Shown piece by piece: positions 14,001-32,850 of a stretch of 33,859 nucleotides of DNA. The position numbers and the translations under genes are program-made. Below the pieces are notes generated by a model. It was given only the letters and a program-made list of their open reading frames with translations. It was not told where the DNA came from and ran no database searches. Every line of letters begins with the position of its first letter. The first letter of the stretch is position 1. This stretch comes from Gracilibacteraceae bacterium. Lineage in GTDB: Bacteria > Bacillota > Desulfitobacteriia > Desulfitobacteriales > Syntrophobotulaceae. Where the stretch lies: the NCBI GenBank assembly GCA_031270805.1, contig JAISWK010000020.1:1-33859 (forward strand). Direction: 5' to 3'.

Positions 14001-15164
<1,164 letters not shown>

Positions 15165-15297: not shown

Positions 15298-15429
15298 GAC
15301 ATGGTTATAACCTGTTGGCGGAGGTAGGCAGGCGGGACATGTAAATATAATGTACATATACGCATATTTAATAAACAAAAAAAGTATACACATCGGCCGC
15401 TCAAGCACAAAGAATAAGGCTTTATGATC
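15298..15429 (+). promoter_or_regulatory. candidate upstream activator region of the sigma-54 promoter
   Basis: AT-rich stretch directly upstream of the -24/-12 promoter with short palindromes: GGTTATAACC (15303-15312), ACATGT (15337-15342), ATGTACAT (15350-15357) and GTATAC (15384-15389). Enhancer-binding proteins normally bind dyads 80-150 bases upstream, so the first three are in the right place. Which one is used cannot be decided from a single sequence. Confidence 0.4.
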
Positions 15430-15445
15430 TGGCACGCTTGTTGCA
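15430..15445 (+). promoter_or_regulatory. sigma-54 (-24/-12) promoter of the catabolic operon
   Basis: TGGCACGCTTGTTGCA matches the RpoN consensus TGGCAC-R-N4-TTGCW at every defined position, with the correct spacing of the GG and GC elements. Expected start near 15456, about 24 bases before ATG 15480. A sigma-54 activator gene (27647) lies in the same cluster. Confidence 0.9.
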
Positions 15446-15479
15446 TTATATAATTGTGGGTAAAGAGAGGAGGCGTTAT

Positions 15480-16400
15480 ATGAAATATCGCAAACTCGGA
15501 AAAACCGGACTCGACGTTTCGGTAGTGGGCGTTGGAACCTGGCAGTATTGCGGCGATTGGGGCCGATCCTTTACCGCCCGGGAAGTGGGCGGCATCCTCG
15601 GCTCGGCGCAGGCCAGCGGGATTAACCTAGTAGATACGGCTGAATGTTACGGCGATCACCGCTCGGAACAGCTGATCGGCGAGGCGTTGCCGGGGCGGCG
15701 CGCCGACTGGCTTATTGCCACCAAATTCGGGCACGCCTACGACCGGAGCGGCGCCAAGCACCAGGATTTTTCAGCGGCCGGAGTACGGGAACAACTGGCC
15801 GCTTCTCTCAAAGCGCTACGCACCGACTACGTGGATATTTTGCTTTTTCATTCCGGCGACAACGAGCAGCTGGAAAACCAAGATCTTTGGGCCATGCTCT
15901 CCAGGCAGCGGGAAGCCGGTCTGATCCGCTATTTGGGCCTGTCTTTGCATCCCGATATCCAAAATAACGTATATCAAACCGCTAAGGCCGCCGAATACGG
16001 CTTGGATGTGATTGAGGTGCTATACAACCGGTTGGAGCGCACAGCCGAAGACGCCGTACTGCCCATGTGCCGGGAATACGGACTAGGCGTACTCAGCCGA
16101 GTACCGCTCTCCAGCGGTTATTTAAGCGGCAAATACAGCCCGGACAGCGTCTTTGCGTCGGATGATGTACGAGAAAGCTATCATAATCGGGATGAGCGCC
16201 GGGAAAAACTGCTGCGGGCGGAAAAAATAAAGCGCTACGAAGTACCCGCAGGTGTCGTAATGGCGCAGTGGGCTATCGCCTGGCCCCTGCGCAACCCGAC
16301 GGTATGTTCGGTAATCGGCGGCTATAAAAACGAAGCCCAGTTGCAAGATGCCGTTCAGGCCGCAGCGATGGCCGCAGAAAGTGGTGAAGGCTTTGATTGA
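15480..16400 (+). CDS. aldo/keto reductase
   Basis: 306 residues from ATG 15480, with GAGGAGG seven bases upstream; the ORF-track start at 15438 lies upstream of the predicted transcription start. NAD(P)H-dependent carbonyl reductase of the TIM-barrel AKR family. It begins MKYRKLGKTGLDVSVVGVG and has the catalytic set Asp-Tyr in NLVDTAECYG, Lys in IATKFG and His in LLFHSGD; the nucleotide site includes RVPLSSGYLSGKY and the late VIGGYKNEAQL. First gene of the sigma-54 operon, so probably a pathway step that interconverts an aldehyde or ketone with an alcohol. Its end overlaps the probable fdrA start. Confidence 0.93.
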   Translation: MKYRKLGKTGLDVSVVGVGTWQYCGDWGRSFTAREVGGILGSAQASGINLVDTAECYGDHRSEQLIGEALPGRRADWLIATKFGHAYDRSGAKHQDFSAAGVREQLAASLKALRTDYVDILLFHSGDNEQLENQDLWAMLSRQREAGLIRYLGLSLHPDIQNNVYQTAKAAEYGLDVIEVLYNRLERTAEDAVLPMCREYGLGVLSRVPLSSGYLSGKYSPDSVFASDDVRESYHNRDERREKLLRAEKIKRYEVPAGVVMAQWAIAWPLRNPTVCSVIGGYKNEAQLQDAVQAAAMAAESGEGFD

Positions 16401-17931
16401 GACGATTATCCGGGCTAATAATTATATGGACTCGATCTTTTTAATGCGGGCCTCACGGGAGATGCAGCAAATAAGCGGTGTTCGCAAAGCTGTGGCTGTG
16501 ATGGGTACGGACATGAACAAAACCGTGTTGGAAGAATTTGGGGTTGACGCCGAGATGGTCGCCGGAACCAGTCCCAACGATCTGATCCTGGCGCTTGATA
16601 TTCAGGATAAAAGTGTGCTGAAAGAAGCGCAGAGCAGCTTGACCGCTCTTTTAACCCAAAAGGAGCCGACTGCGGCGGTCGAGCGAACATATCAGACATT
16701 GCGCCATGCGCTCAGGGAGACGCCTGAAGCCAATCTGGCGGTTATTTCGCTGCCCGGCCAGTTCGCGGCGGCAGAGGCGCGAACCGCCTTGGAGCATGGT
16801 ATGCATGTCTTTATCTTCAGCGACGGCGTTCCGTTGGCCGACGAACTGGAACTCAAGCGTCTGGGCCGCGCAAAAGACCTGTTGGTCATGGGTCCCGGCG
16901 CCGGAACCGCGATTATTGATCAGATCGCCATCGGTTTGATGAGCAAAGTCCGCCCAGGCCGAATCGGGATTGTCGCCGCCAGCGGCAGCGGTCTGCAGGA
17001 AGTGGCGATACTCATTCATCAGGCGGGCTTGGGTGTTTCGCAGGCCATCGGCGCCGGCGGTCGTGATTTGAGTGGGGAGGTCGGCGGCAGTACCATGCTG
17101 CAAGGTATACGTTTCCTGCTCGCGGATAGCGCAACGGATGTCGTGGTTCTAATCTCCAAGCCGCCGCATCCGGACACGGCGGCCAAAATGTTTGCCGCCG
17201 TGGAAAATTGCGGCAAGCCGGTGGTGGTTTTCTTCTTGGGGGGCGAACCTCCGCAGCGGGCGGGGATATATGCGACAGCGACGCTGGAGGAGGCGGCGGT
17301 CGTCGCTTGCCGTCTCGCGAAGGGCGAAGAACCGGCAAGAGGTGATTTCGTTTCCGATCTCAAACAGGAACTGATTACACTGGCGGCGGCGGAAAAGTCC
17401 AAACTGAAACCGGAGCAAAAATACATGCGCGGCTTGTTCTGCGGCGGCACCCACAGTGAAGAAGCGATTCTTCTGTTGGCAGGTTTTGTGCCGCATCTGC
17501 ATTCCAATATAAAAATCGGGCAATCAGTCCTGCTCGCCGATCGGCGTCAAAGCCGGCAGAACTCGCTGGTGGATATGGGCGACGAAGAATTTACCAAGGG
17601 CAGGCCGCATCCGGTCATGGATCCTTCGATCTTGAATGACCGTTTGCTGCAGGAAGGGGCCGATCCCGAGGTGGGGGTGATTCTGTTTGATTTGCTGCTG
17701 GGCTACGGCGTACACAAAGATCCGGTGGGAACCATTGAGGCAACGCTCCGGACGATAAACCGCAACGCGGCGTCCGCCGGCCGCTATATCAGTTTAATTG
17801 CTTCGGTTTGCGGCACCGATCTGGATCCGCAGGGTTGCGCGGAACAAAAACGCCGTCTCACCGACTTGGGCGTCGTCGTTTTGCCGAGTAACGCGCGGGC
17901 GGCGTTGCTGGCGGGCCTGATCGTTTCCTGA
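16384..17931 (+). CDS. fdrA: FdrA family acyl-CoA-synthetase-like protein
   Basis: About 515 residues. Homologues begin just before a YxDSVxLM-like segment, here NNYMDSIFLMRASREMQQI, so I favour GTG at 16384 (16381 is equally possible); the ORF-track ATG 16348 is deeper inside the reductase gene. FdrA resembles the alpha and beta parts of succinyl-CoA synthetase. Visible are VMGPGAGTAIIDQI, the Rossmann motif GRIGIVAASGSGLQEV, ISQAIGAGG-like SQAIGAGGRDLSGEVGG, and the C-terminal FCGGTHSEEAILLL. In E. coli, FdrA with a DUF1116 and a DUF2877 protein was reported as oxamate carbamoyltransferase (AllFGH). Here DUF1116 follows after 13 bases, so a related acyl-transfer complex is expected. Confidence 0.88.
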   Translation: MKALIETIIRANNYMDSIFLMRASREMQQISGVRKAVAVMGTDMNKTVLEEFGVDAEMVAGTSPNDLILALDIQDKSVLKEAQSSLTALLTQKEPTAAVERTYQTLRHALRETPEANLAVISLPGQFAAAEARTALEHGMHVFIFSDGVPLADELELKRLGRAKDLLVMGPGAGTAIIDQIAIGLMSKVRPGRIGIVAASGSGLQEVAILIHQAGLGVSQAIGAGGRDLSGEVGGSTMLQGIRFLLADSATDVVVLISKPPHPDTAAKMFAAVENCGKPVVVFFLGGEPPQRAGIYATATLEEAAVVACRLAKGEEPARGDFVSDLKQELITLAAAEKSKLKPEQKYMRGLFCGGTHSEEAILLLAGFVPHLHSNIKIGQSVLLADRRQSRQNSLVDMGDEEFTKGRPHPVMDPSILNDRLLQEGADPEVGVILFDLLLGYGVHKDPVGTIEATLRTINRNAASAGRYISLIASVCGTDLDPQGCAEQKRRLTDLGVVVLPSNARAALLAGLIVS

Positions 17932-17944
17932 AAGGAGCTGGAAA

Positions 17945-19357
17945 ATGGAGGACAGGCGGATTATTCACGGCCCGATAGTGGCAGTTAATCTGGGATTGCA
18001 GGGTTTTGCCGACGGACTGGCGGAACAAGGGGTACGCACGTTGCAAATCGACTGGCGACCGCCGGTTGACCCGCAGCTGAGTACAGCTTGGCGGCGTTTT
18101 CAGGATCGAGGGAGAGGGCGCCAAACCGAACAGGCCAATCTTGAGGCTTTAGCGCGGCTGCAGGCCGCCGAGCCTTATTGGGTCGGCGTCAAACGCGTAA
18201 AAGACGCGGTTCCCGGGATTAAATCCCATATGATTTTGCATGCCGGACCGCCCATCGCCTGGGAAGACATGATTCCCATCCAGCGCCAAGGCGTTATCGG
18301 CGGGATATTGCATGAAAAATTGGCCGTCACGAAAGAAGAAGCCGCCGGTTTGGCGGAGAGCGGCGAGATCGAACTGGCTTCGGCCAACGATTTTTTCTGT
18401 GTCGGCGCCGGCGCCGGCATAATCACCCCCAATATGGTGATCAATGTCAGCCGCGACCGGAAAACCGGCTTGGAAGGCTACTGCATTCCCTTTGAAGGTC
18501 GGGTGGGGCTGGGAGTCTGGGGCGTTTACAACACGGAAGTCGAAGCCAATCTGCAGATTATTGAGAATGAGTTTGCGCCGGCGGTGGACGCGGCGTTGAG
18601 CCATTGCGGCGGCATCAATATCAAGAGCATCATCGCCCGCAGTATGCAGATGAATGACGAGATCCACACCAGGCAGACCGCCGCCGGTTTAATTCTGGTC
18701 AGTGAAATTGTGTCGCCGCTATTGGATCTGGGTTTGGATTACGAATTAGTCAAAAAATGCGTCGCGCAATTTACCGCCACTGAGCGCTGGTTTCACCCGC
18801 TGGGCATGTCCGGCGGCATGGCGGCGGCCCGCAGCATTAAAGGTCTGGAGTATTGCTCGGTGGTCACGTCCATCGCCCAAAACGGCGTCGAAACCGGGAT
18901 CAAAGTCGCTGCACTGGGTGAGCGGTGGTTCAAAGCGCCGGCGCCTCGCTTTGTCGGCCAGTATTTCTCCAGCGAGTGGGGCCCCGACGACGCAACGCCT
19001 TACATGGGCGACAGTACTGTGACCGAGGTGGTCGGTATGGGGGCGTTCGCGGCGGCGGCGGCGCCGGCGGTTTTACGTCTCCGGGGCGGCGGTTATCGCG
19101 AAGCAATCGCCCAAAGTGAGGAATTGAGCAATATCACCGTCGGCCGTAACGCTAACTACCCCATTCCTTTGCTGGATTTTCAAGGCCCGCCTATGGGCAT
19201 TGATATAGTCAAAGTGGCGGAGACCGGCATTACCCCAATCTGTCACGGCGGGATTATATCAAAAACCGGCGGCCAGATCGGCGCCGGCGCGGCTCGTTAT
19301 CCGATTGAACACTATTTGGCGGCTACCGCCGCTTACCTGGAAAAATACACGGAGTAA
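17945..19357 (+). CDS. DUF1116 family protein (YlbE/YahG/AllG-like)
   Basis: 470 residues; AAAGGAG lies eight bases before ATG 17945. The family is recognised from GLQGFADGLAEQGV with DWRPPV near residue 38, ILHAGPPIAWEDM (residues 97-109), the HCGGINIKSIIARSMQMNDEIHTR-type region with its conserved His, Cys, Asn and Asp/Glu, FFLAV-equivalent MSGGMAAARSI, and the late CHGGIISKTGGQIGAG. It is cytoplasmic, without membrane segments. DUF1116 proteins are almost always found with FdrA and DUF2877 as subunits of an acyl (carbamoyl) transferase; the chemical role of each subunit is not settled from sequence. Confidence 0.9.
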   Translation: MEDRRIIHGPIVAVNLGLQGFADGLAEQGVRTLQIDWRPPVDPQLSTAWRRFQDRGRGRQTEQANLEALARLQAAEPYWVGVKRVKDAVPGIKSHMILHAGPPIAWEDMIPIQRQGVIGGILHEKLAVTKEEAAGLAESGEIELASANDFFCVGAGAGIITPNMVINVSRDRKTGLEGYCIPFEGRVGLGVWGVYNTEVEANLQIIENEFAPAVDAALSHCGGINIKSIIARSMQMNDEIHTRQTAAGLILVSEIVSPLLDLGLDYELVKKCVAQFTATERWFHPLGMSGGMAAARSIKGLEYCSVVTSIAQNGVETGIKVAALGERWFKAPAPRFVGQYFSSEWGPDDATPYMGDSTVTEVVGMGAFAAAAAPAVLRLRGGGYREAIAQSEELSNITVGRNANYPIPLLDFQGPPMGIDIVKVAETGITPICHGGIISKTGGQIGAGAARYPIEHYLAATAAYLEKYTE

Positions 19358-19369
19358 CGGGGGAGTAAG

Positions 19370-21007
19370 GTGAAAAACTGGGCAACTATCGAAACCGATG
19401 TCCTGGTCATTGGCGCGGGACTGACCGGGCTTCGGGCAGCGTCCGCCGCTTCCCGGCTGGGGGCTTCTGTTTTGCTGGTGGGAAAATGCAAGAGCGCCTC
19501 ACCGGATATCATGGGTTTTAACGCGGCGGTGCAGGCTGAGGACAGCACGGTCTGCTATTATCGGGATGTCCGGGTAAGCGGCGCCTGGCTGAACGATCGG
19601 GCGATCAGCGAACAATTGGTGGGCGGCGTCACTGCGGAAATCCGTCTCCTGGAGGAACTGGGTCTTGGCTTCGATAAAAACGCGGATGGCAGCTATCATA
19701 CGATTATGACCTTGGGTTGCACCTACCCGCGCCTGGTACACGCCGGCGCGCTGACCGGGGTGAAAGCCATGCGGCTTTTAGAAGCCGACGCCGCCCGCCT
19801 TGGGGCCGCCCGGCGAGATATGATGGTGTTGGAACTATTGCTCGACGGCTCCAATCTGGCCGGCGCCGTGGCCTTTGATCTGCCGAGCGGCGAGTATCGG
19901 CTGATTCGGACCAAAGCGGCGGTACTCGCGGCCGGGGGCTGCGGGCGTATTTACCGGCGCACAACCTACCCGCCGGGTATCGGCGGCGACAGTTACGCAT
20001 TGGCTTACCGGGCCGGCGCCCGCTTGACCGATATGGAGTTTCAACAGTACGAGCCTTGTTGTTTTGTTTATCCGGAAGAATTGGCCGGCAATCTCCTGCC
20101 GACGACTTTGCTCAGGGCCGGAGCGCGTCTGCAGAACAATCGGGGTGAAGATGTGCTGGAGCGCTACGGTATGCGGATCGACAGCCTGCAGAAAGGCGAA
20201 CTGGCTCAGGCCATGGCCGCTGAGATTGCAGCCGGGCGGGGCACGGAACATGGCGGTTTATACTATGATGTATCAATTCTGCCCCGAGATCTGCTGGTCA
20301 GAGATCACAGCATCTTCTATGAAACACCGCTGAAAGCGGGGATTGATCTGACGACGGCATTGGCGGAAGTAGCGCCCTGCGCTCACACCTGCCTGGGCGG
20401 CGTCCAAATTACCGCCGATACGGACACCGGCATCAACGGTCTGTACGCCGCTGGCGAAGCGGTGGGTGGTGTTCATGGCGCCAATCGCATCGGCGGTTGT
20501 GCCGGCGCCGAAACTCTGGTCTTCGGGGGGCTGGCCGGCGCCCGGGCCGCCCGCCGGGCCGCAACAGACGGCTTTGTCTGCTCGCCGGAAAAACTGACCG
20601 GATTAGCCAAGGGCTCAACGGATGAAGCCGAGCGGCTTTTGGGGCGATCCGTCGGCGAAGCGCCCGGTGCGATCCACCGGGAATTGGGGGACATCATGAC
20701 GGAACACGCCGGGTTAGTGCGTTCACAGTCGGGGTTGGAACAAGCGGCGGTCGCGGTCGCCGGCCTGGAAGATCGTCTGGCGCATAGCCGGCTCGGCAGT
20801 CGGGCTGATATCCCACTCTATCACAGTTGCGTCAATATGTTGACGGTGGCGCAAATGCAGGTTGCATCCTCTCACTATCGCAAAAAAAGCCTTGGTGTAT
20901 ATTCTCGCGCTGATTCAGTGGACGCCGCCGCCGCAACGCGCTATAACACTGTGTTACAGCGGCAGGATGGCGTCATGCGGGTTACAACCGTGAGCCGCTT
21001 CGATTAA
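19370..21007 (+). CDS. FAD-dependent fumarate reductase/succinate dehydrogenase-like flavoprotein
   Basis: 545 residues from GTG 19370 (binding site GGGGGAG). It has the dinucleotide-binding motif LVIGAGLTGLRAA (residues 12-24), LAAGGCGRIYRRTTYPPGIGGDSYALAYRAGA, the substrate-region AHTCLGGVQI that corresponds to AHYTMGGI in FrdA, and GANRIGGCAGAETLVFGG near the C-terminal FAD loop. No iron-sulfur subunit, heme domain or membrane anchor is encoded nearby, so it acts as a soluble oxidoreductase or uses a separate carrier. Probably oxidises or reduces a carboxylic-acid intermediate of this pathway. The substrate cannot be named; other members of the superfamily include L-aspartate oxidase and urocanate reductase. 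Confidence 0.88.
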   Translation: MKNWATIETDVLVIGAGLTGLRAASAASRLGASVLLVGKCKSASPDIMGFNAAVQAEDSTVCYYRDVRVSGAWLNDRAISEQLVGGVTAEIRLLEELGLGFDKNADGSYHTIMTLGCTYPRLVHAGALTGVKAMRLLEADAARLGAARRDMMVLELLLDGSNLAGAVAFDLPSGEYRLIRTKAAVLAAGGCGRIYRRTTYPPGIGGDSYALAYRAGARLTDMEFQQYEPCCFVYPEELAGNLLPTTLLRAGARLQNNRGEDVLERYGMRIDSLQKGELAQAMAAEIAAGRGTEHGGLYYDVSILPRDLLVRDHSIFYETPLKAGIDLTTALAEVAPCAHTCLGGVQITADTDTGINGLYAAGEAVGGVHGANRIGGCAGAETLVFGGLAGARAARRAATDGFVCSPEKLTGLAKGSTDEAERLLGRSVGEAPGAIHRELGDIMTEHAGLVRSQSGLEQAAVAVAGLEDRLAHSRLGSRADIPLYHSCVNMLTVAQMQVASSHYRKKSLGVYSRADSVDAAAATRYNTVLQRQDGVMRVTTVSRFD

Positions 21008-21024
21008 TGCCGGAAGGTGAAGGT

Positions 21025-22512
21025 ATGAGGAAAAAAGCACTGCGCTTTAACGACCTGGATAATGTGGCGGTAGTCTTGGACGGACTGCAGGCCGGCGATC
21101 AAATACTGGTGAACGATCAACCGGCGGCGATAAGCGCCGGCGAGGGCGTGCCGGTCGGGCATAAAATCGCGTTGGCGGCTATTGCGGCCGGTGAACCGGT
21201 GTGTAAATACGGTCATCTGATCGGTTTGGCTACTGAGCATATTCCGGCTGGCGGCTATGTACACAGCCACAATCTGCGCGAACCCGAAGTCCAACGGCAG
21301 GAACTGGCCCTGGGCGGGTCGGCAAAGATCGCCGCCGAGTGCAATCTGACAGAGTTACCGCAGCTATCCGGCTATCGGCGGTGCAACGGCCAACTGGGTT
21401 TTCGCAATCATTTGCTGATCCTTTCGACCGTGGTTTGCGCCAACCAGATTGTCCAGGACTACGGCGCCGCTCATCGGGATGCTGTTACGATTACCAACCC
21501 CAGCGGCTGTATCATCCTGCCGGAAGAAGCCGCCCAGCTCAGGGCGATGCTGCTGGGCCTGGCCCGCAACCCCAATATCGGAGCGGTAATTTTTGTCGGT
21601 CTGGGCTGTGAGAGTACCGAAGCGGAGTGGTTTTACGAACAGGTGCAGGCCGAGAAGCCGGCGGCTTTTATCCGGCAGCAGTCCGAACATTCTTCCGGGC
21701 AGGCATACGCCAAACTGGAGACCATGGCTGCGGATCTGCAGCAAAAACTGGCGGCCCAGCGGCGTGAGCCGGCCAGCTTGGCCGACGTCCGGCTGGGTAC
21801 GGAGTGCGGCGGTTCCGACTGGACCACAGCTATCGTATCCAACCCGGCGATCGGTTATGTTTCCGATCTGGTGGTAAAAAACGGCGGTATTTCTTTACTG
21901 GGCGAAACCGTCGGCTGGTTCGGAGGCGAAGCCGCGTTGCTCAAGCAGGCGCGCAATCCCCAGGTGGCCGGCGATATTGTCAGTTTACTGGATCGGGTTT
22001 ATCACCGGGCGCGGGCTATGGGCCGCCGTATCGAAGAAGGCAATCCGTCGCCAGGCAATCGAGCCGGAGGGCTAAGCACGCTGGCGGAAAAAGCGCTGGG
22101 CAACGTGCGGAAAGGCGGTACGGCGCCGATTGAGGGTGTGTTGGCCGTGGCTGAACAGCCGGCGGGTAAAGGTTTGTATGTTCTGGATAACGCCGGGTTG
22201 GATCCGGTGTCGCTTCTGCAGCTGACCGCATCTTCCGCCAATATTATACTTTTCAGTACCGGCCGCGGCACGCCAGTGGGGACGCCGCTGGCTCCAGCCA
22301 TCAAACTGACCGGCTCGCCGGAGGCGGTCGCCTGTTTCGGCGTTCATCTGGACGTAGATTTATCCCCGGTGATAACCGGCGGAATGAGTATGGCGGCGGC
22401 GGGGCAAGCGCTATTTGAGACAATGCTGGCTGTGGCGGAAGGCCGCCTGACGGCGGCGGAGCGTTTTGGCCACCGGGAGTACGCCTTTCCCTTGATGATG
22501 GGCGTTTTATAG
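21025..22512 (+). CDS. UxaA family (altronate/galactarate-type) dehydratase
   Basis: About 495 residues. I prefer ATG 21025 (MRKKALRFND) because GGAAGG is correctly spaced before it; ATG 21007 overlaps the previous stop as TAATG and is an alternative. Full-length architecture: N-terminal SAF domain with GHKIALAAIAAGEPVCKYGHLIG and YVHSHNL, then the UxaA core with GYRRCNGQLGFRNHLLILSTVVCAN, LGTECGGSDWTTAIVSNPAIG, LLGETVGWFGGEAAL and the C-terminal segment IILFSTGRGTPVGTPLAPAIKLTG. Relatives dehydrate D-altronate, D-galactarate or remove sulfite from sulfolactate. It is not a split SuyAB type. Likely acts on a hydroxy acid brought in by the TRAP system. Confidence 0.9.
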   Translation: MRKKALRFNDLDNVAVVLDGLQAGDQILVNDQPAAISAGEGVPVGHKIALAAIAAGEPVCKYGHLIGLATEHIPAGGYVHSHNLREPEVQRQELALGGSAKIAAECNLTELPQLSGYRRCNGQLGFRNHLLILSTVVCANQIVQDYGAAHRDAVTITNPSGCIILPEEAAQLRAMLLGLARNPNIGAVIFVGLGCESTEAEWFYEQVQAEKPAAFIRQQSEHSSGQAYAKLETMAADLQQKLAAQRREPASLADVRLGTECGGSDWTTAIVSNPAIGYVSDLVVKNGGISLLGETVGWFGGEAALLKQARNPQVAGDIVSLLDRVYHRARAMGRRIEEGNPSPGNRAGGLSTLAEKALGNVRKGGTAPIEGVLAVAEQPAGKGLYVLDNAGLDPVSLLQLTASSANIILFSTGRGTPVGTPLAPAIKLTGSPEAVACFGVHLDVDLSPVITGGMSMAAAGQALFETMLAVAEGRLTAAERFGHREYAFPLMMGVL

Positions 22513-22531
22513 CGGGCGGACGGCAGCCCGC
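22512..22531 (+). other. intercistronic hairpin between dehydratase and aldehyde dehydrogenase genes
   Basis: GCGGGC and GCCCGC form a 6-bp stem with an 8-base loop, followed nine bases later by a run of seven T. The T run is too far from the stem for a classical terminator. It may stabilise or partly process the mRNA. Confidence 0.35.
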
Positions 22532-22571
22532 GCCGGAGAATTTTTTTACCGAAAGAAAGGATGAGCAGACG

Positions 22572-24008
22572 ATGAAGATGTTGATCAACGGACAACGCAC
22601 GGGAGCCTCGGACGGCGGCGTCCTGGAAGTGTGCAATCCGGCCACCGGCGCTCTGTTGGACACTGTACCGGCGGCGACCGCCGCTGACCTGGAGCGAGCG
22701 CTGACGGCGGCGCAAAAAGGCTGGCCCGCCTGGGCCGGTACGCCGCTGTTCGAACGGGGGGCGATCCTGCGGCGTTTTGTCCGCAGCATCGACGAACACA
22801 ACGAAGAACTGAGTCTGTTGCTGTGCCGGGAAATGGGGAAACCGATCAGCGAGGCCCGTAATGATTTCGGCAGCGTCAAGCATTTGTTTAACGGTTTTGT
22901 CGAGGCGGCCAACCAATTGACCGGCATGACTATGCCCCTGGGTGTGCAAGAAGGCCGGGAGAAGGATTTTGAGCTGGCGATCCGGGAGCCTTTGGGCGTC
23001 GTCGCCTGCATCATTCCGTTTAACGCACCCTTGGTGCTTTTTAGTCATAAAGTAGCACCGGCTTTGATCGCCGGCAACGCAGTGATCGTCAAACCGGCCA
23101 GCGACGATCCGCTGGTGCTGCTGCGCCTGGGTGAATTGCTCTGGGAAGCCGGCGTTCCCGGCGACGTGTTCCAGATGATCACAGGCAGCGGCGCCCAGAT
23201 CGGCAGTCTCCTGGCCGGCGATCCGCGTGTCGCCAAAGTCAGTTTTACCGGCAGCACTGAGGTCGGTCTGGCGATAGCTCGGGCAGCGGCGGCTAACATG
23301 GGGCATACCGGACTGGAACTCGGCGGCAACGCACCTTTTGTCGTCATGGCCGACGCTGATATCGACCGGGCGGCGGCGGAGGCGGCGGCAGGTCGGGCTA
23401 CCTATGTGACCGGTCAGATTTGCAATGTCGCCAAGCGCTTCCTGATACACCGTTCCGTCAAGGCGGCTTTCACCGCTAATTTGATCGATCGGTTGCAAAA
23501 AATTATCATCGGTGATCCGGAAGATCCGGCGACGCAAATGGGCACCTTGATCAGCGAGAGCGCCGCCCGGGAAGTAGAACGCCAGGTGGCGCACACGGTC
23601 AGTCAGGGCGCGAAACTTATTTACGGTGGGGTGCGCAGCGGCGCTTATTACACGCCGGCGGTACTGGACGAAGTAACCGGTGCTATGGACATTGCCCATG
23701 ATATGGAAGTTTTTGGGCCGGTATTTCCGCTGCTCACCTTTGATACACTGGAAGAAGCCATTGATCTGAGCAACGATACAATCTTCGGGCTGGGGGCTGG
23801 CATCATGACGGGCGATATGAGTATCGCCCTGCGATTTGCCATGGCTGTCCAGGCCGGCAGTGTGATTATCAATGGGCAGAGTTTTTACCGCAGTTTTATG
23901 ATGCCCTTCGGCGGGTACAAACAGAGCGGCGGCGGTCGGGAGGGACTCACGGTCTCGCTCCAGGAAGTAACCCAACTGAAGAGCATTGTCTTCAAAAATG
24001 TGTTATAG
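22572..24008 (+). CDS. NAD(P)-dependent aldehyde dehydrogenase
   Basis: 478 residues, usual length for the non-acylating ALDH superfamily. Oxidises an aldehyde to an acid through a thioester. Catalytic residues are present: Asn151 in IIPFNAPL, Lys174 in VKPASDDP, Glu249 in LELGGNAPF and Cys284 in TGQICNVAKR; FTGSTEVG and EVFGPVFPLL mark the cofactor site. The combination resembles succinate- or lactaldehyde-type enzymes more than the CoA-acylating ones. It sits between the dehydratase and the transporter, so it probably handles a semialdehyde or the aldehyde released by the DeoC-like aldolase (inference). Binding site AAAGGATG precedes ATG 22572. Confidence 0.94.
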   Translation: MKMLINGQRTGASDGGVLEVCNPATGALLDTVPAATAADLERALTAAQKGWPAWAGTPLFERGAILRRFVRSIDEHNEELSLLLCREMGKPISEARNDFGSVKHLFNGFVEAANQLTGMTMPLGVQEGREKDFELAIREPLGVVACIIPFNAPLVLFSHKVAPALIAGNAVIVKPASDDPLVLLRLGELLWEAGVPGDVFQMITGSGAQIGSLLAGDPRVAKVSFTGSTEVGLAIARAAAANMGHTGLELGGNAPFVVMADADIDRAAAEAAAGRATYVTGQICNVAKRFLIHRSVKAAFTANLIDRLQKIIIGDPEDPATQMGTLISESAAREVERQVAHTVSQGAKLIYGGVRSGAYYTPAVLDEVTGAMDIAHDMEVFGPVFPLLTFDTLEEAIDLSNDTIFGLGAGIMTGDMSIALRFAMAVQAGSVIINGQSFYRSFMMPFGGYKQSGGGREGLTVSLQEVTQLKSIVFKNVL

Positions 24009-24022
24009 CGGGGAGGCGCGCC

Positions 24023-24523
24023 ATGCTTAGCAAGCTGACCAATAGAGCGATTGGACTCCTGGAGAGAATAGTGCTAGCCATGCTGGCGGTTGCGGTGCTG
24101 GTAATCGCCCTGCAGGTCGTCATGCGCTACGTCGTGGGTCAGCCCTTAGGCTGGACCGAACAAATGGCGCGCTATCTGTTCATTTGGATGGTAATGCTCG
24201 GGATTCCGATCATGTTTCACCGTAAGATTTTCATGGCGTTCGACTTGCTTTTGCAAGCTCTGCCCAAGATCGTTCAGCTGGTAATGAACTATGTGATCAA
24301 GCTGTCAATTTGCTTCTTTGCCGCTTACTGGCTCTGGTACAGCCTGCAGCTCATCGCCGCCACCTGGGGCAAGCTGACCAGCGGCATCAAGATGCCTCTG
24401 GCGGTCATATACAGCGCCCAGCCGACTTGCGCGTTTTTCCTGTTGTTGGTTATCCTGACCCAGATCGCGGAAGACATAGCGGCTGCAAAACACCGGGCGA
24501 AAGGAGGCGGCGCCGCGTGCTGA
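24023..24523 (+). CDS. dctQ: TRAP transporter small membrane subunit, DctQ type
   Basis: 166 residues with four hydrophobic segments and the family pattern QVVMRYVVGQPLGWTEQMARYLFIWMVMLG. It joins the large DctM subunit in the inner membrane to form the sodium- or proton-coupled carrier fed by the DctP binding protein. GGGGAGG lies before ATG 24023, 14 bases after the aldehyde dehydrogenase. Its last codons overlap the start of dctM. Confidence 0.93.
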   Translation: MLSKLTNRAIGLLERIVLAMLAVAVLVIALQVVMRYVVGQPLGWTEQMARYLFIWMVMLGIPIMFHRKIFMAFDLLLQALPKIVQLVMNYVIKLSICFFAAYWLWYSLQLIAATWGKLTSGIKMPLAVIYSAQPTCAFFLLLVILTQIAEDIAAAKHRAKGGGAAC

Positions 24524-25788
24524 TTTTTATAGCTGTCTGCTTTTTTGTCACGCTGTTTCTGGGTTTTCCTATTGCCATCGCCATGGGCCTTACTTCGGTG
24601 TTGGCCCTGATCGCCGATCCGAACCTGCCCAGCCTGGTGATGGCGCAAAAACTCTTTACAGCGGCGGATTCTTTCGCTCTGATGGCAATTCCATTTTTCA
24701 TGCTGGCGGGCAAAATCATGGAAGCCACGGGCATCACCGATGAATTGGTAAATTTTGCCAAAACATTGGTGGGCCACATTCGCGGCGGCCTGGGGCACAC
24801 GGTCGTCTTAGCCGGTACGCTGATGGCCGGGATCTCCGGTTCGCAAAACGCCGACGCCTCGGCCATTGGCGCCATCACTTTGCCGGCCTTGCGGCGGGAC
24901 GGCTATGAAGACGGCTTCGCGGTCAGCATCGTCGCTGCGGCCGGCGGCCTGGGTCCGATCATTCCGCCCAGTATTATCATGATCATTTACGCGACGCTGA
25001 CCAATATGAACGTGGGGAAGCTATTCCTGGCCGGTTATATCCCGGGCCTGATGCTGGCTCTCGGCTACATGGCGATCATCGCCGTTTATGCCCGAATGCA
25101 CAATCTGCCGCGCAGCCGCTTCGTCGGTTGGCAGGCAGTGGGGCGGGGTTTTCTCAAAGCAATCTGGGCGCTATTCATGCCGGCGATCATTATTGTCGGC
25201 ATCCTGAGCGGCGTTTTCACCGCCACCGAGTCCGGCGTGATCGCAGTTCTCTACGGCCTGGTCTATGGTATCGTTACTCGCACGATCAACTTGGCCAAAC
25301 TCCGGGAATGCTTGCTGGAAGCCGTAGTTGTGACCGCGATCCCCATGGCGATCATCATCATGGCCAACCTGCTCGGCTACCTACTGACCCGGCAGAATCT
25401 GGCAAATATCGTGGCGGAGTTTGTCACCGGCATCGTCGCCGGGCCTTACTCATTTTATTTTGTCCTGATGGCGATCCTGCTTTTTGCCGGAATGTTTATT
25501 GACGGTACGGCGACATTGCTGCTGTTAGTGCCGGTTTTGCTGCCCATGGTGGACATTTTGGATCTAAACCCCTTGCATTTTGCCCTGATCTTCCTTTTGT
25601 CACTGCAGACTGCCGGCCTGACGCCGCCGGTGGGTCCGCTCCTGTTCATCGTCGCCGGCATCGGTCAGGTTCCGCTGAAAAAGTGCGTGCTGCCGGTGCT
25701 TCCCTTCATCTGCATTATGCTTTTCTGCGTCGTTTTGATCATCTTTTTCCCGGGGATCGTCACCTTTATTCCGGGTTTGATCAAATAG
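24517..25788 (+). CDS. dctM: TRAP transporter large membrane subunit, DctM type
   Basis: 423 residues from GTG 24517, chosen because AAAGGAGG is nine bases upstream and the product then begins with a membrane helix (MLIFIAVCFFVTLFLGFPIAIAMG) as in the family; the ORF-track start at 24310 is inside dctQ. Eleven to twelve hydrophobic segments, with the signature AGTLMAGISGSQNADASAIGAI, GGLGPIIPPSIIMIIYA and TAGLTPPVGPLLF. It overlaps dctQ by seven bases. Confidence 0.95.
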   Translation: MLIFIAVCFFVTLFLGFPIAIAMGLTSVLALIADPNLPSLVMAQKLFTAADSFALMAIPFFMLAGKIMEATGITDELVNFAKTLVGHIRGGLGHTVVLAGTLMAGISGSQNADASAIGAITLPALRRDGYEDGFAVSIVAAAGGLGPIIPPSIIMIIYATLTNMNVGKLFLAGYIPGLMLALGYMAIIAVYARMHNLPRSRFVGWQAVGRGFLKAIWALFMPAIIIVGILSGVFTATESGVIAVLYGLVYGIVTRTINLAKLRECLLEAVVVTAIPMAIIIMANLLGYLLTRQNLANIVAEFVTGIVAGPYSFYFVLMAILLFAGMFIDGTATLLLLVPVLLPMVDILDLNPLHFALIFLLSLQTAGLTPPVGPLLFIVAGIGQVPLKKCVLPVLPFICIMLFCVVLIIFFPGIVTFIPGLIK

Positions 25789-25863
25789 TGCAGCAACGCC
25801 TGCCGGCGCAGTTAATTATAAAAGTTGACACTTAAGGTACGTGAACTCGAAAGGAGAATGTAA

Positions 25864-26904
25864 ATGCCAAGTAAAAAGTTACTCGCGGTATTGCTCAGTC
25901 TGTGCTTGGCGGCGGTGTTGGCGACCGGTTGCGGTCAGTCCCCCGCCGAGCAACCGGCGGCCACCGGGCCGGGACCGGCGTCGACGCCTGCGGAAAAGGT
26001 GGTGCTGAAGATCGGCTATGGCGGCTCCCCCGATATGACGGCGCCCAGTTATGTTCAGATCTGGGCTGATCGAGTGTCGGAGGCGACGGAGGGGCGGATT
26101 TCTTTTGAGATCTATCCCTCGGGACAACTCGGCACTCTGGTGGAAATGCTGGAAGCCTGTGAACTGGGCACTTTGGACGTGACTTTGAACGACCCCTCGC
26201 TGATGGAAACTTACCTGCCGGAGATCGCTCTGCTTTCCCTGCCGTTTATCATTAAGGACTATGCCCACATGGATACGGTCTTTAACGGCGAAGTCGGCGA
26301 CACAATGATCGCCCGCCTGGATGAACAGTCAAATCTGCATGTGATGGGCTGGGTTTGGAACGGTTTTCGCAGCATTTGCGCCAAGAAACCGCTCCGGACG
26401 CTGGCGGACTGCGAAAATCTGGTTATCCGCTCCCCGGAGAGCGATATCTATGTGAATACCTTCCGCCTGCTGGGCATGAGCCCGACGCCGGTACCATTGA
26501 ACGAGACATTCACCGCTATGCAAACCGGTGTGGTGGAAGCGGTGGACAGCCCGATTGAAAACTTTGTCAAAATGAGCTTTTATGAATTGGGCAAGAACAT
26601 TTTAATTTCCAATCACCTGGCCTCTTCTTTGAGCCTGATCTTTAATCAGGACAAATGGGATTCCTTCAGCGCGGAGGATCAAAAACTAATGCTGGACATC
26701 TATGACGAAGTCTTTGTCCAATGCAACCAGGACGTGATTGCCGCAGAACAGACTTATTACGATCAGCTGGTTGATCTGGGCTGCGCCATGACCGAGTTTG
26801 AAAACCGGCAGGAGGTTGTGAACCGGTTCACCGATTACTGGACGCAGTTTGCTCAAACCAATAATTGCCAGGATTTACTGCAACAGATCATTGACTCGAT
26901 GTGA
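25864..26904 (+). CDS. dctP: TRAP transporter substrate-binding lipoprotein, DctP type
   Basis: 346 residues with a lipoprotein signal peptide; the lipobox LATGC places the lipidated Cys at residue 23, followed by a Pro/Ala-rich linker. The mature domain starts KVVLKIGYGGSPD and shows the family's EIYPSGQLGTLVEMLEACELGTLDV, the carboxylate-binding Arg in NLVIRSPESDIY, and TAMQTGVVEAVDSPIENF. DctP proteins bind organic acids through that Arg, so the pathway substrate is likely a carboxylate. Placed after the membrane subunits, with a 75-base gap and a strong AAAGGAG site that may favour high expression. Confidence 0.94.
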   Translation: MPSKKLLAVLLSLCLAAVLATGCGQSPAEQPAATGPGPASTPAEKVVLKIGYGGSPDMTAPSYVQIWADRVSEATEGRISFEIYPSGQLGTLVEMLEACELGTLDVTLNDPSLMETYLPEIALLSLPFIIKDYAHMDTVFNGEVGDTMIARLDEQSNLHVMGWVWNGFRSICAKKPLRTLADCENLVIRSPESDIYVNTFRLLGMSPTPVPLNETFTAMQTGVVEAVDSPIENFVKMSFYELGKNILISNHLASSLSLIFNQDKWDSFSAEDQKLMLDIYDEVFVQCNQDVIAAEQTYYDQLVDLGCAMTEFENRQEVVNRFTDYWTQFAQTNNCQDLLQQIIDSM

Positions 26905-26917
26905 AGGGAGAGAAGTT

Positions 26918-27616
26918 ATGGAAAAAGAGAAAATCGCCGCCATTGTGAAACGGATTGACCACACGATCTTGGCGCCGGTCACAACCTGGGCGGAGATTAA
27001 AGCTCTGCTGGATGAGGCTATTGCGTACCAGGTCGCTTCGGTGGCTCTCCCGATGTCCTATATCAAAGATGCAGCGGATTACGCGCAAGGCCGGGTGGTA
27101 GTGCAGTGCCCCATCGGTTATCCTGCCGGCTATACGACGACCGCAGTGAAAGTATTTGAAATTGAGGACGCCAAGCGGAACGGGGCGACTGAGTTTGATA
27201 TGGTGATCAACCTGGGCTGGGTCAAGGATAAGCGCTGGCAGGATTTAGAGAACGAGATCCGGGCCTGCAAAGCCGCCGCCGGCGATTTGATTTTGAAAGT
27301 CATCGTGGAAGCCGGACTTTTGACGGAAGAAGAAAAAGTCAAAATGTGCGAGATCATCACCACCGCCGGCGCGGATTTCATCAAGACCGCCACCGGATAC
27401 AACACTACCTGGGAAGGATATAACAAAGGCGTCGCCACGGTTGAGGACGTGGAACTCTTCAAGCGGCATTTGGGTCCGGGTGTCAGGATAAAAGCCGCCG
27501 GTGGTATGTATACCCTGGAAGACGCTTATAAATTCGTGGCTCTGGGCGCCGAACGGCTGGGATCGAAGGCGCTTTTGGGCATCGCCCGAGAAGAGGGTTT
27601 TCAGCCCGAGACTTGA
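26918..27616 (+). CDS. deoC: DeoC-like class I aldolase with altered phosphate-binding residues
   Basis: 232 residues from ATG 26918 (AAGGGAG upstream); the ORF-track start at 26849 lies inside dctP. The deoxyribose-phosphate aldolase core is kept: Asp94 in DMVINLG, Schiff-base Lys156 in FIKTATGY and Lys192 in IKAAGG. The phosphate site is not: E. coli GGVRT is GGMYT here (Arg207 to Tyr198), and the closing GASSLL is GSKALL (two Ser to Lys217 and Ala218). There is also an insertion after KTATGY (NTTWEGYNKG). I infer a class I retro-aldol enzyme whose substrate may be unphosphorylated, perhaps with a carboxylate held by Lys217, and not a housekeeping DeoC. No other deoxynucleoside genes are near. 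Confidence 0.85.
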   Translation: MEKEKIAAIVKRIDHTILAPVTTWAEIKALLDEAIAYQVASVALPMSYIKDAADYAQGRVVVQCPIGYPAGYTTTAVKVFEIEDAKRNGATEFDMVINLGWVKDKRWQDLENEIRACKAAAGDLILKVIVEAGLLTEEEKVKMCEIITTAGADFIKTATGYNTTWEGYNKGVATVEDVELFKRHLGPGVRIKAAGGMYTLEDAYKFVALGAERLGSKALLGIAREEGFQPET

Positions 27617-27641
27617 AAAAGACCGCCTGTCGTGCGATAAT
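27613..27641 (+). promoter_or_regulatory. possible vegetative promoter for the activator gene
   Basis: TTGAAA (27613-27618) and GATAAT (27636-27641, extended as TGCGATAAT) with a 17-bp spacer. The expected start would fall at or just beyond ATG 27647, so the message would be leaderless; the gene also lacks a clear ribosome binding site. It may give basal activator levels independent of sigma-54. Confidence 0.35.
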
Positions 27642-27646
27642 GAGTT

Positions 27647-29566
27647 ATGAAAGAAATCGGCATTATCGTAAACAGTACAGACATGTTCAGACTGGCCGCA
27701 GAAGCAGCCGATCCGGAACATGTTGAGGTCGTGCTGACCCACACTTATGAAGAAAGTTTGAGCTGGGCCCGCAGCATGGAGAAAAGCGGCTTTCGTCTGC
27801 TGATTTCACGCGGCGGGCACAGTTCCCGTTTGCGCGAGGCCGGACTGAGTCTCCCGGTGGTGGACATCCCGTTTACCGGTAATAATGTGGTGGCTCTGCT
27901 GCTGCAGGCGAAAAAACAATACCCCGCTTTCGGCGTGGTCGGCAACCGTTCGCTGCTGCAAATCGCCCAGGCCATGGAGGACTCCATCGGCTGCGGTGCG
28001 CGTTACTACGAAGTCGAAGGCTGGGGCGACTTTGAACTGCGGATTGCCGAGGCCAAGGCCGCTGGTCTGGAGGCGATTGTCGGCGGTTATGACGCCACAA
28101 GTTTTGCGACCAGGGCCGGATTGACCGGGTTGTGCGTCACCAGCAACGCCTACGAAATCCGCACCGCTTTGCAGGAAGCCGCGAAAGTCCTGGCTATTCT
28201 CGATGAGGAAAAACAAAGAAGCGCGGTGTTTCGCGCAACTCTGGACGCGATTCACGAAGGCATCATCTTGCTGGACAGTCGGGGGTCGGTGATCCATTTC
28301 AACCGGACTGCGGAAAAACTGCTGAGCTTGGATGCACCATTGGCGATTGGCGCGCCTTTGGCCGATCCGGCCCTGAATAAAAAGATCTGGGGCGTCTTGC
28401 GAGACGGGGCGCCGTTGGCCGATGATGTGGGCATGGCCCAGGACTACCGTTACACCAGCAGCATCTCGCCCATCCGGGTGGATGGGCAGAACACCGGCGC
28501 CGTGGTGGTTTTGCAGGAAGTGGGCTATGTCCGGAAGATTGAGCAGATCGTGCGCCGCAAATCCGCAGACCGCGGGTTGGTGGCCCGGAATACTTTCGCC
28601 AATATTCAAGGCGGCAGCAGCAGGGCGATGCGTGAAGTGATCCGCATTGCCAAGCACTACAGCCAAATCGACTCGACGGTGCTGATCAACGGCGAGAGCG
28701 GCGCCGGTAAGGAGCTTTTCGCTCAGAGTATTCATAACCATAGTCCCAGAAGTCAAGAAGCCTTTGTGGCGGTGAATTGCGCTTCGATCCCGGCCAACCT
28801 GCTGGAATCCGAGTTGTTCGGGTACGCAGAGGGCGCCTTTACCGGAGCGAAAAAAGGCGGCAAAATCGGCCTGTTTGAGTTGGCTCACGGCGGAACGATC
28901 TTTCTGGACGAGATCGCTGAAATCAGCCGGGATATGCAGCCGCGACTGCTGCGGGTGCTTGAGGAACGCCAAATCATGCGGATCGGAGCCGATCGGGTTA
29001 TTCCGGTCAATACCCGGGTTATCGCGGCTACCAATCAGAATTTATTGAGTTTGGTGAATGAAGGCAGGTTCCGTTCGGATTTGTATTACCGGCTGAACGT
29101 ACTGGCTTTGAACCTTCCGCCCCTGCGGGAGCGGCGCGAGGACACGGCGGCGCTGCTTGAGTATTTTCTCCGCCAGTTCACCCAAGGCAGCTTTGGGCAA
29201 GTGCAGCTCAAAGAGGATGGGCTGGCGGTTTTGCTGGCCTATCCCTGGCCGGGCAATGTGCGGGAGCTGAAAAATACCATGGAGCGGCTGGCGGTGGTGT
29301 ACGGCGATCGGCAACCTGTGGGACGGGCCGAGGCGCTCGCTTGTTTGGACAACACTGGCGCGCCGGCCAAGGCGGAACGGCAGCCGGCTCAGGAAAGCAC
29401 GGCCTTGGGCGCGCTGAAAAAACAGCTGGAAGAACAGGCGATTCGCCAGGCCATGCAAGAAGCAGGCGGCAACAAAGCTAAAGCCGCCCGAGAGCTGGGG
29501 ATCACCCGCGTCACATTGTATAAAAAGCTCCGCCAGCTGGAACTTAACTTATTAATTAATAACTGA
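27647..29566 (+). CDS. sigma-54-dependent transcriptional activator with PrpR-type sensor domain
   Basis: 639 residues. N-terminal PrpR_N-like domain (about 1-180; LLISRGGHSSRLREAG, VVDIPFTGNNVVALLL), a PAS domain (about 195-300; ILLDSRGSVIHFNRTAEKLL), the AAA+ domain with Walker A GESGAGKE near 350, the sigma-54-contact loop GAFTGA near 395, Walker B GGTIFLDEIAE, and a Fis-type helix-turn-helix (about 608-630, NKAKAARELGITRVTLYKKL). PrpR_N domains bind small metabolites such as 2-methylcitrate in the propionate regulator. It follows the aldolase gene by 30 bases and most likely acts on the promoter at 15430. Confidence 0.94.
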   Translation: MKEIGIIVNSTDMFRLAAEAADPEHVEVVLTHTYEESLSWARSMEKSGFRLLISRGGHSSRLREAGLSLPVVDIPFTGNNVVALLLQAKKQYPAFGVVGNRSLLQIAQAMEDSIGCGARYYEVEGWGDFELRIAEAKAAGLEAIVGGYDATSFATRAGLTGLCVTSNAYEIRTALQEAAKVLAILDEEKQRSAVFRATLDAIHEGIILLDSRGSVIHFNRTAEKLLSLDAPLAIGAPLADPALNKKIWGVLRDGAPLADDVGMAQDYRYTSSISPIRVDGQNTGAVVVLQEVGYVRKIEQIVRRKSADRGLVARNTFANIQGGSSRAMREVIRIAKHYSQIDSTVLINGESGAGKELFAQSIHNHSPRSQEAFVAVNCASIPANLLESELFGYAEGAFTGAKKGGKIGLFELAHGGTIFLDEIAEISRDMQPRLLRVLEERQIMRIGADRVIPVNTRVIAATNQNLLSLVNEGRFRSDLYYRLNVLALNLPPLRERREDTAALLEYFLRQFTQGSFGQVQLKEDGLAVLLAYPWPGNVRELKNTMERLAVVYGDRQPVGRAEALACLDNTGAPAKAERQPAQESTALGALKKQLEEQAIRQAMQEAGGNKAKAARELGITRVTLYKKLRQLELNLLINN

Positions 29567-30500
29567 AACAAAGAGCGGCGCTGAGCATACCCAGGCAAAA
29601 ATCGGCGCCGGAAGATGCGCCAAAAGCTAAAATTCCCCGAACCTTGGCCATGAGAACCGCTTCGTCGCCGTCGATCAGCGCCGGCAGCAGTTCCCAGACC
29701 GGGTCGGCAAATTCCAGGCGGACGGCGCAAGCAAGATAAAAAACGCTGGATTCGGTGGTTTGCCGCCGGGCAGGGCCGGCGCAGTAATCAGCCAGTATCC
29801 GGAAAAAAAGCCGGGTCGTCAGCGCAGAGGCAGCGCAGAGGCCCAGCCAGGCGGCCAGACCGCAGATCATATCGTCGGCGGCGGGGGTGAGTCCGGGGCC
29901 GCGCCCGGCAAAAGCCTGAAGCGCCGCCGTGGCTCGCTTGTCGTCCAATGCTTTGACCGCCAGCAGCAAATCGTAAAAATGCCGGTAAAAATAGCGACCG
30001 TATGACGGGTCGGCAAACGGCGGTTCGCCCCGGGCGGCGAGAAAAGCCACCCAGTCGGACGCCTTATGTGAGGCGGCGGCCGGCAGCTGAGAGATGAGCG
30101 CGCCGGCTAAAGCCCGGCCGGCGGCCTGGCGCTGCTCGACAGCCAGATCACGGCCCCTGCGGCGGAGATCGCGGTGGGCGGCGCCCGCCAGCCGGCAGAC
30201 ATACTTGGCGCCGGGAATATGCAAATTACCGCCGGCGCTATAGGCGAGCTGGCCGGTCGCCAGTCCGATCCGCCGGCAGTCCGCTTCCGCCGGCAGGTCA
30301 GTGCGCACGCCGCCGGGCAGCAACCGGGTTCGGGCCGTGAAAACCGTCACCAGGCGCTCGTCGGGATAGAGCAGATTAAAACAACGCCGATAGATACCGG
30401 CCACGGCGCCCCGGCACTCCGGGTGCAGCGCGGCGGCAGCCGAGCCGCTGATTTCCAGGGCGGAGCAACGCGTGTTTATTGCTGTCCGGTTTATATCCAT
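29556..30500 (-). CDS. DUF2877 family protein (YlbF/YahE/AllH-like)
   Basis: 314 residues. The family signature is clear: GRGPGLTPAADDMICGLAAW in the second half and FGASSGADFCLGM at the C-terminus, after an N-terminal part with CFNLLYPDERLVTVFT. It is the third component of the FdrA/DUF1116/DUF2877 complex reported in E. coli as oxamate carbamoyltransferase. Unlike its partners it lies on the minus strand; its stop overlaps the activator gene by 11 bases, and it is divergent from the kinase gene 51 bases away. No clear ribosome binding site precedes ATG 30500; a TTGCGG-17-TAAAAT pair just upstream could drive it, giving an almost leaderless message (weak). Confidence 0.88.
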   Translation of the reverse strand: MDINRTAINTRCSALEISGSAAAALHPECRGAVAGIYRRCFNLLYPDERLVTVFTARTRLLPGGVRTDLPAEADCRRIGLATGQLAYSAGGNLHIPGAKYVCRLAGAAHRDLRRRGRDLAVEQRQAAGRALAGALISQLPAAASHKASDWVAFLAARGEPPFADPSYGRYFYRHFYDLLLAVKALDDKRATAALQAFAGRGPGLTPAADDMICGLAAWLGLCAASALTTRLFFRILADYCAGPARRQTTESSVFYLACAVRLEFADPVWELLPALIDGDEAVLMAKVRGILAFGASSGADFCLGMLSAALCFSY

Positions 30501-30551
30501 AACCCAATTTTAGCAGAAAGCATCCGGCCCCGCAATATGAAAGGGGATTTC

Positions 30552-31760
30552 ATGTCCATATTGGTTTGTAATGTCGGCAGCACCTCGCTGAAATTCAAAC
30601 TGTTCGTCGCCTCCGGCCGGACCGTACCGGCTGAGGGGCGGATCGAGCGGGTGGGCAGCGCCGGCGACGCCGTTTTTACCTATAGTCAGCACTTGAACGG
30701 TATCAGCGAAGAACTGACCGGCCTGAGCGTGCCGGACTACACCACCGGCATCGAACTCTTTCTCCGCTATCTGACCGATCCGGTTAAAGGCGCGATTTCG
30801 GATATCGCCCAAGTGGAGGCCATCGGGTTCAAAACGGTGGCGGCTAAAGGCTATTACGGCGTACACGAGCTGACCGATGAAGTTCTCACCGCCATGGCCG
30901 CCTTTAATCAGGTGGCGCCGGCCCATAATCCACCCTATATCGCGGCGATCCAAAAATTTCGGACTTTGCTGCCCGGTAAACTCTGTGTAGGAGTTTTTGA
31001 AACGGCGTTTCACGCCTCAATTCCTTTGGAACGAAAATTATACGCGCTGCCGTATGAATGGTATGAAAAATACGGTATTCAGCGGCTGGGTTACCACGGT
31101 GCATCCCACAACTATATTGCCCGCCGGGTGCAGGAATTGGCCGGCGCAAATTATCGGCTGATCTCATGCCATTTGGGCGGCAGCGGCTCGCTCTGCGCCA
31201 TTGAAAATGGCCGTTCGACGGACACCAGCTTCGGTTTTTCGCCGCAGTCCGGAATACCGCACGCTAATCGCGCCGGCGACCTGGACGCTTATATCTTTCC
31301 GTATTTACAAAGCGAGGGATTGACACCGGAGGAGATCCGCACGGGCCTCAGCCAAAATGGCGGTTTGCTGGGATTATCCGGGGTGAGCGGCGACATGCGC
31401 GATATTGAGGCGGCGGCGGCAGCCGGCAACCGACGCGCCCGCCTGGCCATCGACGTATACTGCAGCGCCGTGACCCGCTATATCGGTGCTTTTTACGCCG
31501 AGCTGGGCGGGCTGGATTACCTGGCCTTTACCGGTGGCATCGGTGAAAACTCCGCGCTTGTCCGCGGGCAGATTTGCGCCCGACTGGAACATATGGGAAT
31601 TCGCTTGAACGCGGAGCGCAACCGGAACGGCGCCGGGGAGCGATTCATTTCCGACGCCGGTTCTCCGGTGCGGGTGCTAGTCATTCCCGCTGACGAGGAA
31701 GCAGGAATTGCGGCTGCTATCATGCAAATTACACAGGGGGATGGTTCTATTTTGTCTTAG
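30552..31760 (+). CDS. acetate-kinase-family acyl-phosphate kinase with altered substrate pocket
   Basis: 402 residues from ATG 30552, with AAAGGGG upstream; the ORF-track start at 30174 lies in antisense DUF2877 sequence. The AckA fold is unmistakable: CNVGSTSLKF at 6-15, VAPAHNPPYI, YALPYEWYEKYGIQRLGYHGASHNY-type region, CHLGGSGS, TGGIGENSALVR and IPADEE. ATP-side residues Asn7, Ser10, Ser12, Lys14, His182, His207, Arg240 and Glu382 are kept. On the acyl side, compared with Methanosarcina AckA, Arg91 is Lys94, Leu122 is Ala124, Asp148 is Glu150, Asn211 is Gly210, and HRVVHGG is FKTVAAK. I infer an acyl phosphate other than acetyl phosphate, formed by the FdrA complex. The symbol ackA would mislead. 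Confidence 0.88.
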   Translation: MSILVCNVGSTSLKFKLFVASGRTVPAEGRIERVGSAGDAVFTYSQHLNGISEELTGLSVPDYTTGIELFLRYLTDPVKGAISDIAQVEAIGFKTVAAKGYYGVHELTDEVLTAMAAFNQVAPAHNPPYIAAIQKFRTLLPGKLCVGVFETAFHASIPLERKLYALPYEWYEKYGIQRLGYHGASHNYIARRVQELAGANYRLISCHLGGSGSLCAIENGRSTDTSFGFSPQSGIPHANRAGDLDAYIFPYLQSEGLTPEEIRTGLSQNGGLLGLSGVSGDMRDIEAAAAAGNRRARLAIDVYCSAVTRYIGAFYAELGGLDYLAFTGGIGENSALVRGQICARLEHMGIRLNAERNRNGAGERFISDAGSPVRVLVIPADEEAGIAAAIMQITQGDGSILS

Positions 31761-32843: not shown

Positions 32844-32850
32844 GTGTAAG

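Follow-up and report, generated by a model that had tools for sequence, protein, structure and literature searches.

We consider it likely that the element at positions 15430-15445 is a working sigma-54 promoter driven by the activator encoded at the end of the same gene cluster, through an enhancer at 15340-15356. The window, by which we mean the whole analyzed stretch of 33,859 nucleotides, is contig 15 of an assembly with 196 contigs (2.69 Mb, 84% complete). The regulation of this large operon for acid uptake and catabolism follows an ordinary, well-described clostridial sigma-54 pattern, and the enzyme set under its control is the less ordinary part of the locus. The promoter, the activator, and the candidate enhancer offer an experimental handle on an uncharacterized enzyme set. 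The features of the locus are listed in Table 1.

The element matched the sigma-54 consensus TGGCAC/T-N5-TTGCA/T exactly, its GG (15431-15432) and GC (15443-15444) having exact GG-N10-GC spacing, and the window contained no other exact match to TGGCACNNNNNTTGCW. Allowing up to two mismatches gave matches at chance level (18 observed and 17.1 expected in the window). The leader in which it lies is a divergent intergenic region of 339 bases, shared with tgt on the minus strand (14001-15140). The original prediction of a full RpoN consensus before the first gene was confirmed, except that 34 rather than 35 bases separate the element from the ATG at 15480 on the same strand. A plausible leader follows the element, with a Shine-Dalgarno sequence, AGAGGAGG, approximately 7 bases 5' of this ATG, and taking the C of the -12 GC as reference places the predicted +1 at approximately 15456 (a G), the start proposed originally. 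By these features, 15430-15445 was confirmed as a genuine-looking sigma-54 promoter. No sigma-70-like promoter was scored on the plus strand of the leader by a consensus scan, which is insensitive; the operon might therefore use an undetected sigma-70 promoter and the 16-mer might be a chance occurrence. We regard this as extremely improbable, given that shuffled windows contained 0.03 exact matches each (both strands together) and that the element is on the right strand, 34 bases before the first gene, with an activator gene nearby.

Table 1. Coordinates of the features of the sigma-54-associated locus in the window
Feature	Position	Strand	Basis
Candidate upstream activating sequence (UAS) TGTAAATATAATGTACA, TGT-N11-ACA	15340-15356	.	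73 bases upstream of the -24 element
Sigma-54 (-24/-12) element TGGCACGCTTGTTGCA, TGGCACG-CTTG-TTGCA	15430-15445	+	Exact consensus match
Shine-Dalgarno region of the first gene, AGAGAGGAGG	15463-15473	+	Sequence
Aldo/keto reductase, first operon gene	15480-16400	+	PF00248 1.9e-48
FdrA (AllF) homologue	16393-17931	+	NF004760 2e-127; 33% identity to E. coli FdrA
AllG (DUF1116) homologue	17945-19357	+	PF06545 9.3e-53; 33% identity to E. coli YlbE/AllG
FAD-dependent fumarate reductase/NadB-like flavoprotein	19370-21007	+	PF00890, PF02910
Altronate/galactarate dehydratase family (UxaA/GarD-like), SAF + GD_AH domains	21007-22512	+	PF20629 1e-72
Aldehyde dehydrogenase	22572-24008	+	PF00171 6e-147
TRAP transporter (whole)	24023-26904	+	PF04290, PF06808, PF03480
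TRAP subunit DctQ	24023-24523	+	
TRAP subunit DctM	~24517-25788	+	
TRAP subunit DctP	25864-26904	+	
DeoC-family aldolase	26918-27616	+	TIGR00126 3.3e-56, above cut-off
Predicted extended -10 sigma-70 promoter, TTGAAA-17-TGcGATAAT	27613-27641	+	Consensus scan, 10/12; prediction only
Sigma-54 activator: PrpR_N aa 29-187, PAS 195-242, AAA+ with GAFTGA 323-488, lid, Fis-type HTH 593-630	27647-29566	+	
AllH (DUF2877) homologue	29556-30500	-	PF11392 2.5e-20; 37% identity to E. coli YlbF over 111 aa
Acetate/propionate-kinase homologue	~30537-31760	+	PF00871 1.4e-98

Sigma-54 elements were found in use across the host genome. Exact elements numbered 11, compared with one for the reversed pattern used as a control, and nine of the 11 lay 34-125 bases 5' of a same-strand gene start preceded by a Shine-Dalgarno sequence. 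The genes behind these elements include those for CoA transferases, a dehydratase-like protein, an NADH:flavin oxidoreductase-like protein, and a molybdopterin-type oxidoreductase (names read from the translations). The genome encodes at least nine full AAA+ sigma-54 activation domains. The TGGCAY form, TGGCAYNNNNNTTGCW, occurred 15 times in the host genome versus once for its reverse, whereas two near-complete family genomes lacking rpoN showed no excess (G020 and G023, 2 versus 1 each). The excess was uneven among rpoN-bearing relatives (e.g., 4 versus 1, 45 versus 2, and 5 versus 5), so that it counts as support for rpoN and not as proof.

Although the assembly lacks rpoN, the motif statistics favor its presence in the genome. 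Two domain models found neither the DNA-binding nor the core-binding domain of RpoN in the 84%-complete assembly. The original prediction had named a genome without rpoN as evidence against itself; the gene is indeed absent from the assembly, but the evidence favors a gap in the assembly. Three of four genus relatives and 21 of 25 family genomes carry rpoN. In two relatives (G002 and G003), the gene lies between rnpA and a gene for a LuxR-type ATPase regulator (names read from the translations). In the host assembly, 256 bases of contig C36 remain beyond the rnpA side, and the LuxR-type gene lies close to one end of contig C141, where the remaining 1.5 kb consists of repeats and a nuclease-like gene that disrupt synteny on this side. 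Both contigs with the rpoN-flanking genes end there, and the expected rpoN site is therefore an assembly break; no rpoN remnant was present at the expected place up to the contig ends. An assembly gap is a good, though unproved, explanation, and rpoN presumably lies in a portion of the genome that was not assembled. Alternatively, rpoN may have been lost in this lineage, leaving the element as a relic and the operon silent or read from another promoter. The missing domain match and the existence of family members without rpoN (G020, assembled in one contig, and G023) would fit such a loss, which is nevertheless highly unlikely in view of the intact AAA+ domains of at least nine activators, the motif excess that the rpoN-less relatives do not share, the rpoN genes of the closest relatives, and the broken assembly at the rpoN neighborhood.

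In two genus relatives, a near-identical integrase-like gene separates rnpA from rpoN (L100:5933-6559 and L102:5550-6176), and a diverged copy is present on G000:C51. Short tandem repeats of GTGGTTA/GGGATTA units occupy 31777-31890, 3' of the kinase gene in the window, and GGGATTA repeats close to where contig C141 (L132) ends resemble them.

The activator was found at the predicted position with all of its predicted motifs. Its AAA+ domain (PF00158, 1.2e-67) carries GAFTGA together with Walker A and B motifs (GESGAGKE and GGTIFLDE in the translation), and a Fis-type HTH forms the C-terminus (PF02954, 7.2e-14). The activator had been described as PrpR-type; a PrpR_N domain is present (PF06506, 3.8e-30), related to the N-domain of PrpR (2PJU, 4.7e-07), but the protein scored 381.4 bits against the PrpR equivalog cut-off of 499.2 (TIGR02329), and it contains a PAS domain besides, which leaves the sensing domain unsettled. 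PrpR, the activator of propionate catabolism, shares the PrpR_N, AAA+, and Fis HTH domains with this protein and differs in lacking the extra PAS; no 2-methylcitrate-cycle genes were recognized in the operon. The best NCBIfam match was PrdR (NF041552, 1.5e-118), the proline reductase activator of Clostridioides/Clostridium, which resembles the present protein over PAS-AAA+-HTH and as a one-component activator near its target operon. However, this match covers only aa 191-630 and reached 396.6 bits against a cut-off of 795, and no proline reductase was recognized in the operon. Because both scores are well under the equivalog cut-offs, the protein is neither PrpR nor PrdR; on these domain scores, it is a new PrpR_N-type activator distinct from both. 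It is the sole PrpR_N protein in the assembled genome, and the nearest relatives found in the family are merely 33-40% identical.

Upstream of the promoter, ATGTAAATATAATGTACAT (15339-15357) forms an interrupted palindrome of the TGT-N10-12-ACA class. In a reconstruction of clostridial sigma-54 regulons, 15 activator groups, including PrdR, bind this class of site (PMC6615313). The site was the only one of its class in the 289-base leader. In shuffled sequences, any such site arose in the leader with P = 0.18 and an equally symmetrical one with P of approximately 0.01, both values being post hoc. Most clostridial sigma-54 enhancers lie 100-250 bases upstream of the promoter (PMC6615313), and the candidate is thus slightly nearer than most. 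Of the palindromes originally proposed at 15303-15357, this one is a credible candidate, whereas GGTTATAACC (15303-15312) was rejected, with a palindrome strength at chance and recurrence in unrelated loci. An enhancer borrowed from the other PrpR_N activators of the family was also rejected: their recognition helices are mostly of the GISRTTLWRKL type versus GITRVTLYKKL here, so that their sites are not transferable.

From position only, we infer that the activator and the promoter form a pair. The promoter could instead depend on sigma-54 but respond to another activator of the genome, with the local one serving another promoter or working in trans. At least eight further AAA+ activator domains are encoded in the genome, and 38 of 263 clostridial activators are not clustered with their targets (PMC6615313). 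Such an arrangement is nonetheless unlikely here, since the local activator belongs to the same co-directional run, the window contains no second exact sigma-54 element, and activator genes in Clostridiales mostly adjoin their targets (PMC6615313).

With the local activator as the partner of the promoter, the following mechanism can be proposed. The sigma-54 promoter would transcribe the co-directional genes, the activator would bind the candidate enhancer, and its PrpR_N domain, its PAS domain, or both would sense a small molecule connected with the pathway. ATP hydrolysis acting through the GAFTGA loop would then drive promoter opening. Induction of the operon would generate positive feedback, since the activator gene is part of it. 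The predicted sigma-70 promoter before the activator gene ends five bases before its ATG, and this ATG lacks a clear Shine-Dalgarno sequence. If functional, this weak promoter may supply a basal level of activator, which need not then depend on the sigma-54 transcript. Within 27613-27650, the start expected from this promoter falls almost on the activator ATG, and, as a prediction only, a leaderless basal mRNA could exist besides the operon transcript.

On/off control of the whole operon had been proposed; the gene order fits control of the co-directional run from the promoter to the activator, but not of the AllH and acetate-kinase homologues. All genes at 15480-29566 run in the same direction and are separated by short gaps or overlap briefly, and the activator is the last of them. 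The AllH gene is convergent with the activator gene on the minus strand and the kinase gene lies beyond it, so that neither would be in the sigma-54 transcript unless by read-through. For the FdrA homologue, the reading frame is open from 16348, and the TTG start at 16393 was suggested by alignment to E. coli FdrA; the DeoC frame is open from 26849 and has a Shine-Dalgarno-preceded ATG at 26918. The UxaA/GarD-like dehydratase scored 237.8 bits, under the GarD equivalog cut-off of 730.85. Comparison of the TRAP transporter with solved relatives gave matches to numerous DctP proteins, among which no ligand class stood out clearly. The XduR regulon of Clostridiales (kdgT-uxaA; PMC6615313) likewise places a UxaA-family dehydratase and an acid transporter under sigma-54 control, whereas the present operon combines a TRAP transporter with FdrA/AllG, flavoprotein, aldehyde dehydrogenase, and DeoC genes.

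In E. coli, allFGHK encodes an oxamate carbamoyltransferase and a carbamate kinase (PMC11326118). The present locus is similar in uniting AllF, AllG, and AllH homologues (33-37% identity) with a nearby acyl-phosphate-type kinase. It differs in that the kinase belongs to the acetate kinase family, its nearest solved chains being acetate kinases, and in that the genes are mixed with those for sugar-acid-type enzymes. The window yielded no carbamate kinase homologue, and the AllFGH plus AllK set of an oxamate carbamoyltransferase is thus incomplete here, with an acetate-kinase family member in place of the carbamate kinase. This combination (16393-31760) suggests a phosphorolytic, ATP-yielding step with a substrate other than oxalurate.

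The enzyme genes are also clustered in contigs of two gut Clostridia, a Ruminococcaceae MAG (L023) and Candidatus Merdisoma (L024), with 44-71% identity. Neither of these clusters, both on partial contigs, contained a detectable activator or an exact sigma-54 element. The genus, family, and order yielded no close cluster, nor did any orthologous locus with the same activator turn up, and the FdrA/AllG relatives in the order to which the window belongs are merely 32-44% identical. From these distributions, the metabolic cluster looks horizontally acquired and its regulation lineage-specific. We give limited credence, as a tentative proposal, to the idea that a sigma-54/PrpR_N circuit was superimposed on a mobile, uncharacterized pathway that gut Clostridia carry without it. 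In this proposal, an AllFGH-like complex may split an oxidized sugar-acid product with phosphate, and the acetate-kinase homologue would form ATP from the resulting acyl phosphate. If this were true, the ligand of the activator would reveal an intermediate of a new energy-conserving sugar-acid route.

The gut clusters (L023:1043-4916 and L024:438-4308) start with a zinc alcohol dehydrogenase gene. In L023, this is followed by genes for an RpiB/LacAB-type isomerase, two glyoxalase-fold proteins, and a transaldolase-like protein; the ORFs of L024 are similar in size and order, domains having been searched in L023 only. These extra genes (alcohol dehydrogenase, isomerase, glyoxalase-fold, and transaldolase-like) are missing from the operon in the window, and their presence in the gut clusters hints at a sugar substrate. 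The leaders of the first genes in both gut contigs (L023:929-960 and L024:300-330) have the motif CAATATAGTACA-AAACAG in common, which is probably the site of a different regulator. At the contig end of the window, 32196-33858 encodes an AbiEi/AbiEii-type (type IV toxin-antitoxin) gene pair.
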